This document shows, one piece after another, positions 3,780 through 43,420 of a stretch of 64,000 nt of DNA. How positions within the stretch are numbered: position 1 is the stretch's first letter; each line of letters starts with the position of its first letter. Source of the stretch: Lachnospiraceae bacterium (GTDB lineage: Bacteria; Bacillota; Clostridia; Lachnospirales; Lachnospiraceae); assembly GCA_022796795.1 (NCBI GenBank), contig JAAWJI010000011.1, forward strand, positions 27,880-91,879. The letters are read 5' to 3'. The translations under genes were made by a program, and so were the position numbers. Below the pieces are notes generated by a model. It had not been told where the DNA came from. It saw only the letters and a list, made by a program, of their open reading frames with translations, and searched no databases.

Positions 3780-5087
3780 TTATCCCTCCTTCTTTCCCAG
3801 CAAATCCCACACGACGCCTGCGTAATAGGCGGCGCCCAGAGACAGGGCGTGCTCATCAAAATCAAACTGCCGGCTGTGGAAAGCCGAAGCGCAGGGAATT
3901 TGAATCCCCGTAAAGCAGGCCTGACCGCCCTTTTCGATAACCCGTTGGGTCATATAGGCAAAATCCTCGCTGCCGCCCATGTCTTTGGGATCGCCGGTTT
4001 CCAGGTGCAGCTTTTCCTCACAGACCTTGCGCAGCCGCTCCACCAGAGCAGGCGTACAGGCCATGGCGGCAGCCCCGCCCATACGGGTTACCTCCAGGGT
4101 GCAGCCGTGCATGGCAGCCGCGCTTTCCAGAATCTGTATGGTATACTGCTCCATATACGTATTGATGGCAGTGGTTTCCCCCCGCACTTCAATCTCAAGC
4201 TTCGCCTGGTCGCAGATAACGTTTCTGCCGCTGCCGGCGTGCAGGGTTCCCACATTCACCCGGCTGCTTCCCTCCCCGTGCCGGGGAATGGCGTGGAGAT
4301 TCAAGGCCGCAGTGGCTGCTGCCAGCAGCGCGTTTTGGCCTTCCTGGGGATAAAGGCCAGCATGGGCGGATTTTCCTTTGAAATAGGCGTCCAGCTTGCT
4401 GGTGGCCAGGGTTCCCGAAAGACCAGGACAGATCTGAAAGCCGCCGTCAGAGGATTCCGCCAGATGACTGGCCAGAACATAGTCCACATCATCCAGATGA
4501 CCGTTTTCCACAATGGACCGGGCGCCCCGGACGCCCTCTTCCGCAGGCTGGAAAATAATTTTAACGGTTCCTGCAAGCTGATCCCGCACAGAGGCCAGAA
4601 GCTCTGCCGCGCCAAGGCCGATAGTAATATGGCCGTCATGGCCGCATGCATGCATAACGCCCTCTGTAAGGGATCTAAAGTCCTCCCGGACCGGCTTGTG
4701 GGTTTCCTCCCCACACTCAAATACGCCCAGAGCGTCCATGTCAAAGCGCAGGGCTATTACAGGCCCTTCCCCGCAGTGCAGGATTCCAATGACGCCCGTA
4801 TGGCCTCCGGCTGTTTGGGGAAGGAATTCCGGGCAAGCCCCGTGTTCCAGGGCCCATGCATAGTGTTCCTCCATGACTTCCTTTGGCGGAAGCCCCATGC
4901 GCGCCTCCTCCTTGCAGACTTTTGTTCCTGTAAGCACTTCATACCCCAGATCTTTGAGCCGTCTTGCAATCAAAGATGAAGTTCGCATTTCCAGCCATCC
5001 GGTTTCCGCATATTTGTGCAGATCTCTCCGGCAGTGAACCAGCTGTTCCTGCAGATTCTTCGCTTCTTTTACCAGTTTCTGATACAT
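3780..5087 (-). CDS. M20-family amidohydrolase, AbgA (aminobenzoyl-glutamate hydrolase subunit A)-like
   Basis: RRDLHKYAETGWLEMRTS, RFDMDAL, HACGHDGHITIGLGAAELL, FQPAEEGVRGA; AbgA-like insert (MGLPPKEVMEEHYAWALEHG). Confidence 0.88.
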   Translation of the reverse strand: MYQKLVKEAKNLQEQLVHCRRDLHKYAETGWLEMRTSSLIARRLKDLGYEVLTGTKVCKEEARMGLPPKEVMEEHYAWALEHGACPEFLPQTAGGHTGVIGILHCGEGPVIALRFDMDALGVFECGEETHKPVREDFRSLTEGVMHACGHDGHITIGLGAAELLASVRDQLAGTVKIIFQPAEEGVRGARSIVENGHLDDVDYVLASHLAESSDGGFQICPGLSGTLATSKLDAYFKGKSAHAGLYPQEGQNALLAAATAALNLHAIPRHGEGSSRVNVGTLHAGSGRNVICDQAKLEIEVRGETTAINTYMEQYTIQILESAAAMHGCTLEVTRMGGAAAMACTPALVERLRKVCEEKLHLETGDPKDMGGSEDFAYMTQRVIEKGGQACFTGIQIPCASAFHSRQFDFDEHALSLGAAYYAGVVWDLLGKKEG

Positions 5088-18064: not shown

Positions 18065-19198
18065 GTGAAAAAAGAGATTTCTTATCAGGTATCCCTGGAG
18101 GAGGACGAAAACAAGCTGGAGCAGGTTCTGCGGCGGTCTCTGGAACTAAGTCCCCGGGAGATCCGAAGAGCTAAATTCCGCCCCCAGGGCATTTGCGTCA
18201 ATGGCGTCAGGCGGCGGGTTACGGAAACTGTGCGCCAGGGAGAGAGGATCACGGTCTGTCTGGAAGAGGAGGGAGACGGCCAGGATCAGCTGGTGGCCGT
18301 GGCAGGAGAACTGCAGGTGCTTTATGAGGACGGGGATGTGCTGGCTGTGTGCAAGCCCCCGGGCCAGGTCTGTCATCCCTCCGGGGGGCATTACGCCGAT
18401 ACCCTGGCCAATGTGATGCAGGATTATTTCCAGAGGAAGGGGCAGCAGGGAAGGATTCGTCTGATTGGACGGCTGGATCAGGAAACCTCGGGCATTGTGC
18501 TGGCGGCCAAGAGCCAGGCGGCGGCAAGCCGTCTGAGCAAACAGCGGGAGCAGGGAATCCTGAAAAAGGAATATCTGGCTTTGGCGGCTGGCAATCCGCT
18601 TCCGGATCAGGGATGGGTGGAGGAGCCTATAGGTCCAGCCAAAAACAGAACAGAGGGAAAACGGGAGGCCATTAGGATGCAGGTGCGGCCGGATGGAAAG
18701 CCTGCCCGGACTTTTTATGAGACGCTGGCTCAAAGGGACGGCGTCTCTTTGTTGCGCCTGACGCTGGATACGGGCCGCACCCATCAGATCCGGGTCCATA
18801 TGGCCTGGCTGGGTTGTCCGCTGCTGGGAGACACCCTGTATGCAGCCATGGCGGAGGGCTTTACCCGGGCCGCGCTGCATGCCGGGACAGGAGGCTTTAC
18901 CCAGGCCGTGCTGCATGCCGGGGCGGAGGGCTTTACCCAGGCCGCGCTGCATGCCGGGACAGGAGGCTTTACCCAGGCCGTGCTGCATGCCGGGGCGGAG
19001 GGCTTTACCCAGGCCGCGCTGCATGCCAGGACAGGAGGCTTTACCCGGGCCGCGCTGCATGCCTGGCGGCTGGCGTTCTGCCAGCCCTTTACCGGGGAAC
19101 CCATTGTGCTGCAAGCGCCCTTTCCTGAGGATTTTGCGGGATACCTTGTGCATTTTCCGCAAATTGTGTATAATGGGGAAGATGTCAAAGGATCATGA
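18065..19198 (+). CDS. RluD-like pseudouridine synthase with internal tandem repeat
   Basis: LYEDGDVLAVCKPPGQVCHPSGGH, IGRLDQETSGIVLAAKS, LDTGRTHQIRVHMAWLGCPLLGDTLY, AALHAWRLAFCQPFTGE. Confidence 0.9.
   Translation: MKKEISYQVSLEEDENKLEQVLRRSLELSPREIRRAKFRPQGICVNGVRRRVTETVRQGERITVCLEEEGDGQDQLVAVAGELQVLYEDGDVLAVCKPPGQVCHPSGGHYADTLANVMQDYFQRKGQQGRIRLIGRLDQETSGIVLAAKSQAAASRLSKQREQGILKKEYLALAAGNPLPDQGWVEEPIGPAKNRTEGKREAIRMQVRPDGKPARTFYETLAQRDGVSLLRLTLDTGRTHQIRVHMAWLGCPLLGDTLYAAMAEGFTRAALHAGTGGFTQAVLHAGAEGFTQAALHAGTGGFTQAVLHAGAEGFTQAALHARTGGFTRAALHAWRLAFCQPFTGEPIVLQAPFPEDFAGYLVHFPQIVYNGEDVKGS
18857..19063 (+). repeat. 36-nt in-frame coding tandem repeat (~5.75 copies; alternating as a 72-nt higher-order unit)
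   Basis: GFTRAALHAGTG-GFTQAVLHAGAE-GFTQAALHAGTG-GFTQAVLHAGAE-GFTQAALHARTG-GFTRAALHA. Confidence 0.95.
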
Positions 19199-37640: not shown

Positions 37641-38057
37641 CTGGAGGAAATTACGGCGCAGATTGTATATTATACCAGGCTTTCTCTGCTGTGTTTGGGA
37701 TTGTCCCTGCTGTGTTTTCTCACGGCAGTGATTTTATTTTACAAGCTGGATATTGGGACAGCCGTGGCAGACCTACGGGGGTATTCTGCCAGGAGAGAGA
37801 CTGAAAAGCGGAGGGTAAAAAAGCGAAGGACCAAAAGGCAAAGGATCAAAAACCAGAGGTCAAGAAGGTGGGGGACCAAAAGGCGGAGGTCAGAAAAGCG
37901 GAGCATAGGAAAACGAGGAGGCGCAAAGACTCGTAGATCCGGACCCAGGAGAAAGGAGAGCTTCTTTGTGCCGGAACGGGAGATTATGTTGACCCATACA
38001 CCGCGGAGGCGGATGGAAACAGGCGAAGAGAAAGAGGAGGAGAAGGGAAGTTTATGA
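37641..38057 (+). CDS. Small membrane protein with highly basic tail
   Basis: LEEITAQIVYYTRLSLLCLGLSLLCFLTAVILFYKLDIG (TM) then Arg/Lys-rich low-complexity tail; in frame with the kinase after one TAG; possible CTG start at 37641 with SD-like AGGGGGTG. Confidence 0.5.
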   Translation: MEEITAQIVYYTRLSLLCLGLSLLCFLTAVILFYKLDIGTAVADLRGYSARRETEKRRVKKRRTKRQRIKNQRSRRWGTKRRRSEKRSIGKRGGAKTRRSGPRRKESFFVPEREIMLTHTPRRRMETGEEKEEEKGSL

Positions 38058-41000
38058 AGAGAGGGAAGGAAAAGAGAAGAATGACGGGGAGAAAGGGCCT
38101 GGCAGGAATCGCAGTCCTTTTATGTCTTTGGGGGAGCATGGGGGATTGGAAGTTTTTGGATGTCTATGCGTCGGAGGAAAACGGGGAGCGGGTACAAGAG
38201 CAGGAACAGGGGCAGGAGCAACAGGAACAGGAGCAGCAGGAGCAGCAGGAACAGGAGCAACAGGAACAACAGGAACAACAGCAACAACAGGAACAACAGG
38301 AGCAAGAGCAGGGAAATCCGGGGTCTGAAAGAAAGCAGAGCTATGGCATTTCTCTGACAGATGTAAAAAATGATACCGGAATCTGCGTACAGGATGAGGA
38401 AGGAAAGTATTATTTCGGGGAGAGTCTGCGGGTGACACTGGAAATAGGCGTGGAGGAGTTGGAAGAGCCGGAGGAACCGGGAGAGCCAGGGGAACCGGAG
38501 GAACCAGAAGAGCCAGGGGAGTCGGAGGAACCGAAGGAGCCAGGGGAATCGGGAGAGCCGGAAGAGCTGGAGGAACCAGAAGAGCCAGAGGAGCCAGGAG
38601 AATCGGGAGAGCCGGAGGAACCAGAAGAGCCAGAGGAGCCAGAAGAGCCGGAGGAACCAGAAAAGCCGGAGGAAGCCGCGTCCACAGTGTTCTTAAAGAG
38701 GAATGGGGAAACACTGGCCCGGATTGACGCGGCTATGACGTATGTGGAGGACCTGCAGGAGGAAGGGGAATACCTCTATGTGCTGGAGGATGAGGAGGGG
38801 CATCTGTATGACTCCGCCGTTTTGGTAAATGCCAGGCAGTGCAAATCCAAGCCGCAGCTTGCGATTTCTTTTCCGGACACCGCGCCCTGTATGGGAGAGA
38901 CTGCCTTTTTTCAGGGGAACCCGGATATTTTGGCAAGAATCCAAGATGAAATGGGAATCTGGAAAGTGGAATACCGGAAGGAAAGGGAGGGGAGCCAGGA
39001 GGAGCCAAAGATTTATTGCCTGCTAAAGGAATATGGAAAGGAGGAGGAAATCTACCCGGCGAAACAGCATCAAACTTTTGTCGGAAGCCTGAAATCAGGA
39101 GACCTGGAAGAGGAGCTTAGAGAAGCTTTGGAGGGCAGCCATTGCTATATAGTTCGGGTGACCAATGTAATGGGACAAACGACAGAAGCAAAGGCTCGCT
39201 TTGTCCTGGATGAGACGTGTCCGGTTCTGGAGTTTCAGTATCCGGAAGGGACAAAAGACGAGAATACCAGGCGTTTGTTCTACCGGGGGGAGGCTGCCAT
39301 AGGTCTGCGGCTCTGGGAGGCCTGGTATGAGGAGCAGCTTTACCAGAAGCCTGGGAGCGGAGAGTCTGGGATCGAAGAGTCTGGGATCAGAGGGCCAGAG
39401 ATCAGAGAGTCTGGGAGCGGAGAGCCAGGGATTGTGGAGCCCCGGATTGTGGTTGACGGAGATCAGAATGGACAGGCATGTGTGGAACAATGGGTCGTTG
39501 AAAAGCCGGAGGGGAAAGTCTGCGCCAGGAGCCAGGTTCACCTTCCAGGAGAAGCGGGGGAGGAAATCTCCTATGGTATCCGGGTCAGATACAGGGACTG
39601 TGCGGGAAATGCCCTGAAAAAGGAGCCTCAGGTTTGGGGAGAGGAGCAGGAAGACGGAGTGGTCAGCTGTGAACTGGTGGTGGATCAAAAGCCTCCCCGG
39701 CTTCTTTCCTTTCAGACCCAGGGGACTATTCGTCATCAGATAGGGGAAATTCCCGTTTATGAGCACAACAAGGATCAGGGAGATGTGCAGATCTCTTTTG
39801 TGATTCAGGATCATCCGGACTATTGGGATCCTCAGGCTGTGGATTTTAAAATTTACAGGAAGGGCGAGTCTGGACCTGTGGCGGATTTTGGCGGAAAAAA
39901 TCAAAGCGGGAATCAAAAGGGAGCACTGGAATGGGAGCATAGGGGGGATCGGCACAGGGCTGTCTGTCATTTCTATGGGGAAGAGGAGCAGGCAGGAGAA
40001 TATTACGGGGTGGTCTCTTACCAGGACCGGGCGGGAAATCCGATGGAGACTGAGAAAGAGGAAGACGGACTTTCAGAGGAGGCTCCCGGCAGATTACGGG
40101 GGAAGAGCTTTATTTTAGATCACCGGGCTCCGGAAGTTACGGTATCCTGCTCCCAGGCCGTAAGTCTGTTGGATGTCCGGGGAGCTCATGCCGCGAAAGA
40201 GAAGGAAAGGATTCCGGAAAAGGGGGATACCGCCTATTACGGGGATAAGATTAACGTTTCCTTTGAAATACAGGAGGAGTATCCGGCCTTGGAAAGGAAG
40301 GAGGACGGCGGATGGGAGCTTAAGGATTTTTCCCTGAGGGTTATCCGGGACGGGGAACTGTTGGAGGAGGAGCCTGATGTCAGCTGGCGGTATGAGCCGG
40401 GGGAACAGATTTGCTATGGAAGCTTTCAGATGGAAGCGGATAAAAAGGAACATAAGACAGACGGGGCCTATGAGATCCGGATTGCCTATGAAGATTGCGG
40501 GGGAAATCAAATGATTGGGGCAGATGGGATCACCGCAGGACTATTGAAGGAGGGCGTCTACCAAAGTCCGCTGCTGATTCTGGATACCGTAGCGCCGGAG
40601 CTTGCGCTCTCCTACACCATGGAGCCTGTGAGAAGCTTGGGGGACACCCAATATTTTAAGGAAGCAGGAAAGCTTGAGATACAGATTTCTGATAAAAGCT
40701 TCCGCATGGGAGAGCTAAAGGAAGAGTTGGAAAAGCTTGTGGTGGAAAATCAGATGGGGGAGAAGCTTACAGAGAAAACGGCTCTGTGGGCAGCCGTACA
40801 GGGACTGGAAAGCTCTCTTTTATGCAGTCAGAAACAGGTGGTGGAGCTTCCGCTTGCCGAGGACGGGATCTATGAAATCCCGGTAGCGTACACGGATCTG
40901 GCAGGAAATCCGGCAGTCTGGAAGGACAGCGGTTTGCCTGTGGGGCAGAGCAGGTCGAGAGTCTGCATAGACCGGCGGGCTCCGGAGCTTGAACTTACCT

Positions 41001-43420
41001 GTCAGGTGGAGGAGTCAGGTTTTTTGGACTGTATCCGATACCGGAATCTGGATTTTTGGACTGCAGATCACAAGATGACTATGACGGTCCGGGCAGAGGA
41101 TCACACGGCGGGCATTAGGAAAATCCGCTTTACTGTCACAGATGAAGCGGGAAAGGAAACTGTGAGGGAAGAGGATTTCCCATCCTGTATACAGGGGAGC
41201 TATGCTCTGACGCTGCCTCTTTGGGATCGGGATTTTAAGGGAAGCATCAAGACGGAGGCCCTGGATTGGTCTGAAAATACAAGAGAGCTTGTTCAGTACG
41301 GGCTGGTGGAGAGCCAGGAAACGCACCGGGAAAGTCAGAAGGCCCGGATTCTCACAAAGACCCAACCCTCCCGGGTGGTGGATGGCGTGGAGTATTATGG
41401 GGAAGACGTAGAGCTTTCGCTGGAGGTGGAGGATTCCTATGGGGGGATCCAAAAGGTTTCCTATGAGGCGGGGAGTCAGATTTTGGGAGAGTGGGACTGT
41501 GTGCAGGAAGCAGAGAAAGGACAGAGCCCGGAGGGGATTTCGGATCTGACTTACCGCTTTAGGAAGGACCTGGTTTTATCCGCCCATGCCAATAACCGAA
41601 ATAATGTGCCAGTGCGGGCCTCTTTTATTGACCATGCCGGACATGTGGAGACAGTGGAGAAATTTTACCAGATAGACGCCACGCCTCCTGTGATTACGGT
41701 GGAATATGACAGAAATACCCCTGCTCATGAAAAATATTATGACCAGGCCAGGACTGCATATGTGACGATCCGGGAGCGCAATTTCGATCCCCGGGACGTA
41801 GTGTTTACAATTACGAATACAGAGGGAGCGCTGCCGGAGATCGGAAGCTTTCGCAGTACGGGCCAGGGAGACGACATGCAGCACAGCTGCCAGGTCGTTT
41901 TTCAGGAGGACGGGGAGTATACCTTTACGGTGGGCTTTCAGGACTTGGCCGGAAATGTGGCGGATTACAGCCGGGTGGACACCTTTGTCATTGACAGGAC
42001 GGATCCCGTGCTTACAGTGACCTATGACAATCAGGAGGCGGCCTCGGGATTCTATTTTGCCAAGGGCAGGAGGGCTACTCTGACGGTGGAGGAGCATAAT
42101 TTTGATCCATCTCTTATGAAGGTGCAGATCCGCGCAGAAGAGGGGGAAGCCCCGGCGGTATCCGGATGGAGCCGGAATCAGGATGTTCACCAGGCGCAAA
42201 TTTATTTTCAGGCGGATGGAAGCTATACTTTTTCCGTGGAGGGATCAGATTTGGCAGGAAATCCCCTGCCAGGCTATGAGACAGAGCCCTTTGTCGTTGA
42301 TCAGACAGTCCCGGAGCTGGAAATTCTGGGCGTTCGCCATAAGTCCGCCAACAACGGGAAAATTGTCCTGGAGATTCAGGGCAGGGACACCCATTATGAT
42401 CCAACAGGAACGAAGATCCGGCTGCGGGGACTTAAAAACGGAGAACAGGAAATTCGGGTGGGAGAAGAGAAGGAGTCAGGAGAGAGAGAGTCAAGAGAGA
42501 AAATCCTGACTGCGGATACCTGGAGGCAGTCCAGGGATGGAATGCAGCTTCAATTTCTGGATATTCCCCGCCTAAAAGAGCTGGATGATCTGTATATTCT
42601 GGAGGCGGAAATCTGTGATCTGGCAGGGAACCGGGCGCAATCCGCCATTTCGTTTTCCGTGAATCGGTTTGGCTCTGTCTATACCCTGGAACAGGAGACC
42701 GAGAAGCTGGTGGGAGAAAAAGGCGTCTTTTACACCCAGAGCGCGCCGGATCTGATCATCACAGAGACCAATGTGGATACCCTGGAGTTTCAAGAGATCG
42801 TCTGCAGCAGGGACGGGAGCCTGAGGACCCTGCAGGAGGGGCGGGATTATCAGGTGCGCGCCGACAAAGCAGAGGGAGAGTGGAAACAATATACATACCA
42901 CTTGAACAAGGAGAATTTTCAGCAGGAGGGTGTGTACCGGATTTCCATTTATTCGGAGGACCGGGCCAGAAATACTTCGGATAATAACACAAAGGGAAAG
43001 GAGCTTGGATTTGCCGTGGACCGCACAAGTCCCTGGATTCAGATTCCCGGTCTGGAGGAGGGCGCCCAATACAGGGAAAGGAGCCATAGAGCCCTGGTGG
43101 ATGTGCAGGATAATCTCTGCCTGCAGCGGGTGCAGATTGTGCTGAATGGAGAGAAGCGGGTATATGAAGCCGGGGAGCTTGCAGAGCTTGAGGGAAAGCT
43201 GCCCCTTTTGGCAAAAAGCAGTCCCCACTGGCAGGAATTGGAGGTGACGGCTTGGGACGGGGCCGGAAATGTGAGGAAAACAGAAGCGCTACGATTCCTT
43301 GTAACTCCCAATATTTTGGTACCCTTCTTTCTTAACAAGCCCTTGTTTTATGGGAGCCTGGGGGGCCTGATAGTTTTGGGGGCGGCGCTGGCAGCTGGAT
43401 TTTGGAAGCAAAGGAGCTGA
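38054..43420 (+). CDS. Giant surface protein: signal/TM N-terminus, Q/E and E/P low-complexity stalk, ~11 Ig-like modules, C-terminal TM anchor
   Basis: 1788-aa ORF; recurring D(x)AGN and DxxxPxLxxxY signatures (YQDRAGNPM, YTDLAGNPAVW, FQDLAGNVADY, GSDLAGNPLPG, ICDLAGNRAQ); C-term LFYGSLGGLIVLGAALAAGFWKQRS. Confidence 0.85.
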   Translation: MKRGKEKRRMTGRKGLAGIAVLLCLWGSMGDWKFLDVYASEENGERVQEQEQGQEQQEQEQQEQQEQEQQEQQEQQQQQEQQEQEQGNPGSERKQSYGISLTDVKNDTGICVQDEEGKYYFGESLRVTLEIGVEELEEPEEPGEPGEPEEPEEPGESEEPKEPGESGEPEELEEPEEPEEPGESGEPEEPEEPEEPEEPEEPEKPEEAASTVFLKRNGETLARIDAAMTYVEDLQEEGEYLYVLEDEEGHLYDSAVLVNARQCKSKPQLAISFPDTAPCMGETAFFQGNPDILARIQDEMGIWKVEYRKEREGSQEEPKIYCLLKEYGKEEEIYPAKQHQTFVGSLKSGDLEEELREALEGSHCYIVRVTNVMGQTTEAKARFVLDETCPVLEFQYPEGTKDENTRRLFYRGEAAIGLRLWEAWYEEQLYQKPGSGESGIEESGIRGPEIRESGSGEPGIVEPRIVVDGDQNGQACVEQWVVEKPEGKVCARSQVHLPGEAGEEISYGIRVRYRDCAGNALKKEPQVWGEEQEDGVVSCELVVDQKPPRLLSFQTQGTIRHQIGEIPVYEHNKDQGDVQISFVIQDHPDYWDPQAVDFKIYRKGESGPVADFGGKNQSGNQKGALEWEHRGDRHRAVCHFYGEEEQAGEYYGVVSYQDRAGNPMETEKEEDGLSEEAPGRLRGKSFILDHRAPEVTVSCSQAVSLLDVRGAHAAKEKERIPEKGDTAYYGDKINVSFEIQEEYPALERKEDGGWELKDFSLRVIRDGELLEEEPDVSWRYEPGEQICYGSFQMEADKKEHKTDGAYEIRIAYEDCGGNQMIGADGITAGLLKEGVYQSPLLILDTVAPELALSYTMEPVRSLGDTQYFKEAGKLEIQISDKSFRMGELKEELEKLVVENQMGEKLTEKTALWAAVQGLESSLLCSQKQVVELPLAEDGIYEIPVAYTDLAGNPAVWKDSGLPVGQSRSRVCIDRRAPELELTCQVEESGFLDCIRYRNLDFWTADHKMTMTVRAEDHTAGIRKIRFTVTDEAGKETVREEDFPSCIQGSYALTLPLWDRDFKGSIKTEALDWSENTRELVQYGLVESQETHRESQKARILTKTQPSRVVDGVEYYGEDVELSLEVEDSYGGIQKVSYEAGSQILGEWDCVQEAEKGQSPEGISDLTYRFRKDLVLSAHANNRNNVPVRASFIDHAGHVETVEKFYQIDATPPVITVEYDRNTPAHEKYYDQARTAYVTIRERNFDPRDVVFTITNTEGALPEIGSFRSTGQGDDMQHSCQVVFQEDGEYTFTVGFQDLAGNVADYSRVDTFVIDRTDPVLTVTYDNQEAASGFYFAKGRRATLTVEEHNFDPSLMKVQIRAEEGEAPAVSGWSRNQDVHQAQIYFQADGSYTFSVEGSDLAGNPLPGYETEPFVVDQTVPELEILGVRHKSANNGKIVLEIQGRDTHYDPTGTKIRLRGLKNGEQEIRVGEEKESGERESREKILTADTWRQSRDGMQLQFLDIPRLKELDDLYILEAEICDLAGNRAQSAISFSVNRFGSVYTLEQETEKLVGEKGVFYTQSAPDLIITETNVDTLEFQEIVCSRDGSLRTLQEGRDYQVRADKAEGEWKQYTYHLNKENFQQEGVYRISIYSEDRARNTSDNNTKGKELGFAVDRTSPWIQIPGLEEGAQYRERSHRALVDVQDNLCLQRVQIVLNGEKRVYEAGELAELEGKLPLLAKSSPHWQELEVTAWDGAGNVRKTEALRFLVTPNILVPFFLNKPLFYGSLGGLIVLGAALAAGFWKQRS
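38193..38312 (+). repeat. Gln/Glu-coding low-complexity repeat
   Basis: QEQEQGQEQQEQEQQEQQEQEQQEQQEQQQQQEQQEQEQG. Confidence 0.9.
38448..38680 (+). repeat. Glu-Pro-coding low-complexity repeat
   Basis: VEELEEPEEPGEPGEPEEPEEPGESEEPKEPGESGEPEELEEPEEPEEPGESGEPEEPEEP... Confidence 0.9.

Follow-up and report, generated by a model that had tools for sequence, protein, structure and literature searches.

The window, the whole 64,000-nt stretch of gut-bacterial DNA analysed here, contains on its forward strand an ORF at positions 18065..19198 with a GTG start, encoding a 377-aa pseudouridine synthase of the RluA family. The assignment draws on profile matches to PF00849 (1.5e-31; 110.2 bits against a cut-off of 26.8) and TIGR00005 (206.5 bits, above the cut-off of 192.7), and on the predicted fold. 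The PF00849 catalytic domain, delimited by profile match and alignment, covers aa 91-247 (18335..18805, forward strand), with the RLD motif at aa 136-138 and GRTHQIRVHMAW at aa 237-248. Residues R136, D138, G237, R238 and H240-W248 fall in columns that are invariant among 55 aligned sequences, and both the RLD and GRTHQIR motifs are intact. We take D138 of the RLD motif to be the catalytic Asp. The AlphaFold2 model (mean pLDDT 84.7) shows an RluA-type fold, and its best PDB match is E. coli RluD (2ist, E 4.2e-26).

The initial annotation described the enzyme as RluD-like, which holds at the level of the family, given the TIGR00005 score, and does not hold for RluD itself. Against the equivalog model for RluD, the synthase of 23S rRNA positions 1911/1915/1917, the protein scores 147 bits, below the cut-off of 351, and a different gene of the source genome (contig C38) scores 277.9 bits, also below that cut-off. 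Six PF00849 genes are present in the source genome. Because of its lower score on the RluD model, the gene in the window appears to be an accessory paralogue, and not the genome's best RluD candidate.

The 3' part of this gene carries a tandem array at 18848..19063 (forward strand), consisting of six head-to-tail 36-nt units, each encoding 12 aa, with a higher-order period of 72 nt. Tandem Repeats Finder reported 5.8 copies of the 36-nt period with 89% matches (18857-19063) and 3.0 copies of the 72-nt period with 97% matches and a score of 400 (18850-19063). Together with the codon register, this bears out the earlier description of an in-frame 36-nt expansion with about six 12-aa units and a 72-nt higher period. 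Read in codon register, the units are MAEGFTRAALHA, GTGGFTQAVLHA, GAEGFTQAALHA, GTGGFTQAVLHA, GAEGFTQAALHA and RTGGFTRAALHA, followed by WRLAF; unit 2 matches unit 4 exactly, and unit 3 matches unit 5. Each repeat of the peptide combines GFT[R/Q]A[A/V]LHA with a linker of 3 aa. The first and last units are of an R type and the inner ones of a Q type, so that they carry distinguishing bases. Wherever units differ, the difference is non-synonymous, and this might point to selection for variety, although no more than about five variable codons are concerned.

An exact repeat of 88 nt occurs in two overlapping copies at an offset of 72 nt (18868-18955 and 18940-19027, together 18868..19027 on the forward strand). 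In 200 shuffled versions of the gene no exact repeat exceeded 14 nt, and in the gene outside the array the maximum was 10 nt, which places the array far beyond chance. Identity of the 72-nt copies over 88 nt also points to recent growth, in agreement with what had been proposed from the near-identity of the units. The array lies in frame with the gene and contains no stop, and its near-identical head-to-tail units, its period divisible by three and its position inside an open frame are those of a coding minisatellite. Searching the source genome for the 36-nt unit with up to three mismatches gave six matches, all within the array, and a reversed-pattern control search of the same genome gave none. 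A dispersed repeat or mobile element was ruled out, since the unit occurs at the array alone.

In the protein, the array occupies the loop between the GDxxY motif and the strand RxALHAwrLxF, both of which are seen in relatives. The initial annotation had noted that the RAALHA segment preceding this strand is present in multiple copies. The repeat is indeed derived from the enzyme's own sequence, and the description can be refined: because RAALHA leads straight into the conserved LHAwrL.F..P strand, the last unit, RTGGFTRAALHA (19028..19063, forward strand), represents the native copy, and the extras are the five units that precede it. DSSP on the AlphaFold2 model and the alignment place the LHA of this last unit in the native beta strand LHAWRLAFC (aa 331-339), and the C-terminal strand region WRLAFCQPFTGEPIVLQAPFPEDF is conserved downstream of the array (19064..19138, forward strand). 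In-silico removal of five units yields YAAMAEGFTRAALHAW, with a loop of 10 residues, the length seen most often in a set of 111 distinct sequences (46/111; 11 residues were found in 27/111). Most of the core is predicted with pLDDT above 90 and the array at about 45, residues 268-313 being below 50 almost throughout; the short helices drawn in the extra units are of too low confidence for use. In line with the earlier suggestion of a tolerated surface loop, the model indicates that the five extra units most likely form a flexible surface loop at a site tolerant of insertions and deletions.

The same loop differs in length among relatives. Two sister species from the genus of the window have loops of 30 and 33 residues, non-repetitive and unrelated in sequence, and the length is 24 residues in several gammaproteobacterial members and 28 in two Bacteroidota members; alignment places a segment of about 24 residues there in E. 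coli RluD. In another Lachnospiraceae species (L054), the loop reaches about 107 residues and is made of degenerate 33-nt units that show a higher-order period of 99 nt (3935-4229), unrelated in sequence to the 36-nt array and predicted at very low confidence. Three more tandem arrays lie in the same 7-kb stretch of L054. In a set of about 150 relatives, arrays at the loop are confined to these two lineages; arrays have thus arisen there independently at least twice, though rarely. No copies of the 36-nt unit were found in any relative examined; the identical copy number across distant species that the initial annotation had named as evidence against its reading was thus not observed. By match lengths, no other large insertion was detected in the aligned part among 64 matches from 397 family genomes and 38 from 391 class genomes, two samples that overlap. 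The large open frames of G095 and G144 were candidates for further expansions and were dropped, since their loops are ordinary. In the sister species (L008, L009), further loops of the enzyme are extended as well, by about 30 residues after FYETL (G002) and about 20 after EEPIGP (G003).

We consider it highly likely that the array is a coding minisatellite that arose by slippage or unequal recombination, with a recent 72-nt step, and that it is tolerated in the loop, probably without a dedicated function. Replication slippage or unequal recombination would have started the array through a tandem duplication of about 36 nt coding for xxxGFTRAALHA, just 5' of the last conserved strand of the catalytic domain. 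The copies would then have diverged slightly (Q for R, V for A, GAE and GTG linkers), and a 72-nt pair would have been duplicated again recently. Selection would be needed solely to purge out-of-frame products. The last copy would supply the native strand, the other five being extruded as about 60 extra residues of flexible loop, and the enzyme would still fold, since the period is divisible by three and the surface loop that takes up the copies already varies in length in the family. We infer that the array is most likely neutral or nearly so, and the enzyme has presumably kept its activity despite it. Hairpin-driven expansion was dropped, as the array DNA, on either strand and at 72 or 144 nt, gave folding z-scores of 0.16 to 2.5, none more stable than shuffled sequence. 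The ends of the putative single-copy ancestor showed no microhomology of at least 5 nt at a spacing of 25-45 nt.

The added units could instead form a functional variable loop that alters the contact of the enzyme with RNA or the ribosome, with copy number tuning specificity or activity. The presence of arrays at one loop in two independent lineages, the segment found there in E. coli RluD, the non-synonymous nature of all unit differences, and the extension of other loops in sister species would fit such a role. We nevertheless regard it as unlikely, since the lineages share no insert sequence, the inserts are predicted at very low confidence and are missing from nearly all relatives, and tolerance accounts for the same pattern. 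A bolder version, in which the loop is a hot spot where lineage-specific arrays derived from the enzyme's own sequence recur and alter RNA engagement, with a tuning or phase-variable copy number, seems to us quite improbable. Relaxed constraint or early decay, with the array mirroring the reduced importance of an accessory paralogue, would agree with the multiplicity of PF00849 genes in the genome and with the restriction of strong matches to this paralogue to 60 of 397 Lachnospiraceae genomes, a figure that varies with the E-value threshold chosen. The chances of this reading appear slim, given that the frame and the RLD and GRTHQIRVHMAW motifs are intact and the C-terminal strand is retained 3' of the array. 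Outside the loops, moreover, dN is well below dS against the sister species (0.27-0.32 versus 1.5-2.1, with dS near saturation, so that the ratio is uninformative on the time since the array arose). This supports the view that the gene outside the loop has been under purifying selection, as a working gene over the longer term.

An artefact, in which the assembler made the copy number or the whole array, has to be considered for a draft assembly of 76 contigs, tandem repeats being a known general source of assembly errors (PMC6868369). We judge it very improbable: the units carry distinguishing bases, the longest exact repeat is within the span of ordinary 150-base reads, and the usual error of assemblers is to collapse repeats of this kind, not to create in-frame ones. 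The actual number of copies may exceed six.

Coding repeats have been described in other enzyme genes. In-frame tandem duplications of 3-84 bp, ascribed to slippage, occur in the loops of KPC beta-lactamase (PMC12593533); like the array, they lie inside an enzyme gene, but they are short, selected by drugs and of measured effect, whereas the array comprises six units and is under no known selection. The copy number of 6-bp coding tandem repeats in the mutL gene of Salmonella and E. coli shifts by slipped-strand mispairing (PMC2955026). These also lie inside a gene, here for an enzyme-like repair protein, and a protein that has lost a single 6-bp copy is inactive, so that the repeat works as a switch (PMC2955026), whereas the synthase array is putatively neutral. 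The KPC and mutL cases (PMC12593533, PMC2955026) show that coding repeats in genes of this type are an established phenomenon. RluA-family 23S/tRNA pseudouridine synthases (TIGR00005; E. coli RluD, PDB 2ist/1qyu/7bl5) resemble the array protein in fold and catalytic motifs, and their segment from GDxxY to the RxALHA strand varies in length, as it does at the array. Among the relatives examined, however, only L054 shows at this place near-identical tandem copies of a motif of its own, and its unit differs. Searching the literature for tandem repeats in enzymes of the RluD type returned nothing relevant. The array is genuine and an uncommon feature for an enzyme of this kind, but the underlying process is ordinary. 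It provides a natural case in which an enzyme core gained about 60 residues by repeated in-frame self-duplication with its fold apparently kept, and it marks one RluA-family loop as an indel-tolerant site. If its copy number proves variable, the array is a possible strain-typing marker; knowledge of pseudouridine synthases is unchanged by it.

In-frame arrays are common in the source genome and in Lachnospiraceae. In 447 kb of the source genome, 13 tandem arrays scored at least 100, all with periods divisible by three, and the pseudouridine synthase array had the top score. This corresponds to 29 arrays per Mb, against 10-40 per Mb in five related genomes, as estimated from samples of stretches (447 kb here and small samples of the other five), and lends little weight to the idea of an exceptionally repeat-rich genome. 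Since in-frame arrays are so common, the synthase array needs no special process. Ordinary Lachnospiraceae coding minisatellites resemble it in period (similar to 36 nt, a multiple of three) and in lying in open frames. Most of the others sampled are, by translation, of low complexity or in large or surface-type proteins, whereas this one lies in a catalytic domain; this location and its top score in the sample are what is unusual about it. Elsewhere in the window, Gln/Glu-rich and EEP-type tandem arrays (38198-38674) lie near the N-terminus of a 1788-aa protein with bacterial Ig-like domains (38054-43420), whose gene adjoins one for a protein kinase domain protein (PF00069, 35928-37637). Pro-rich TPPVEAPKPPV tandem arrays are found in another open frame of the source genome (L178:9949-10239; G000, contig C42).
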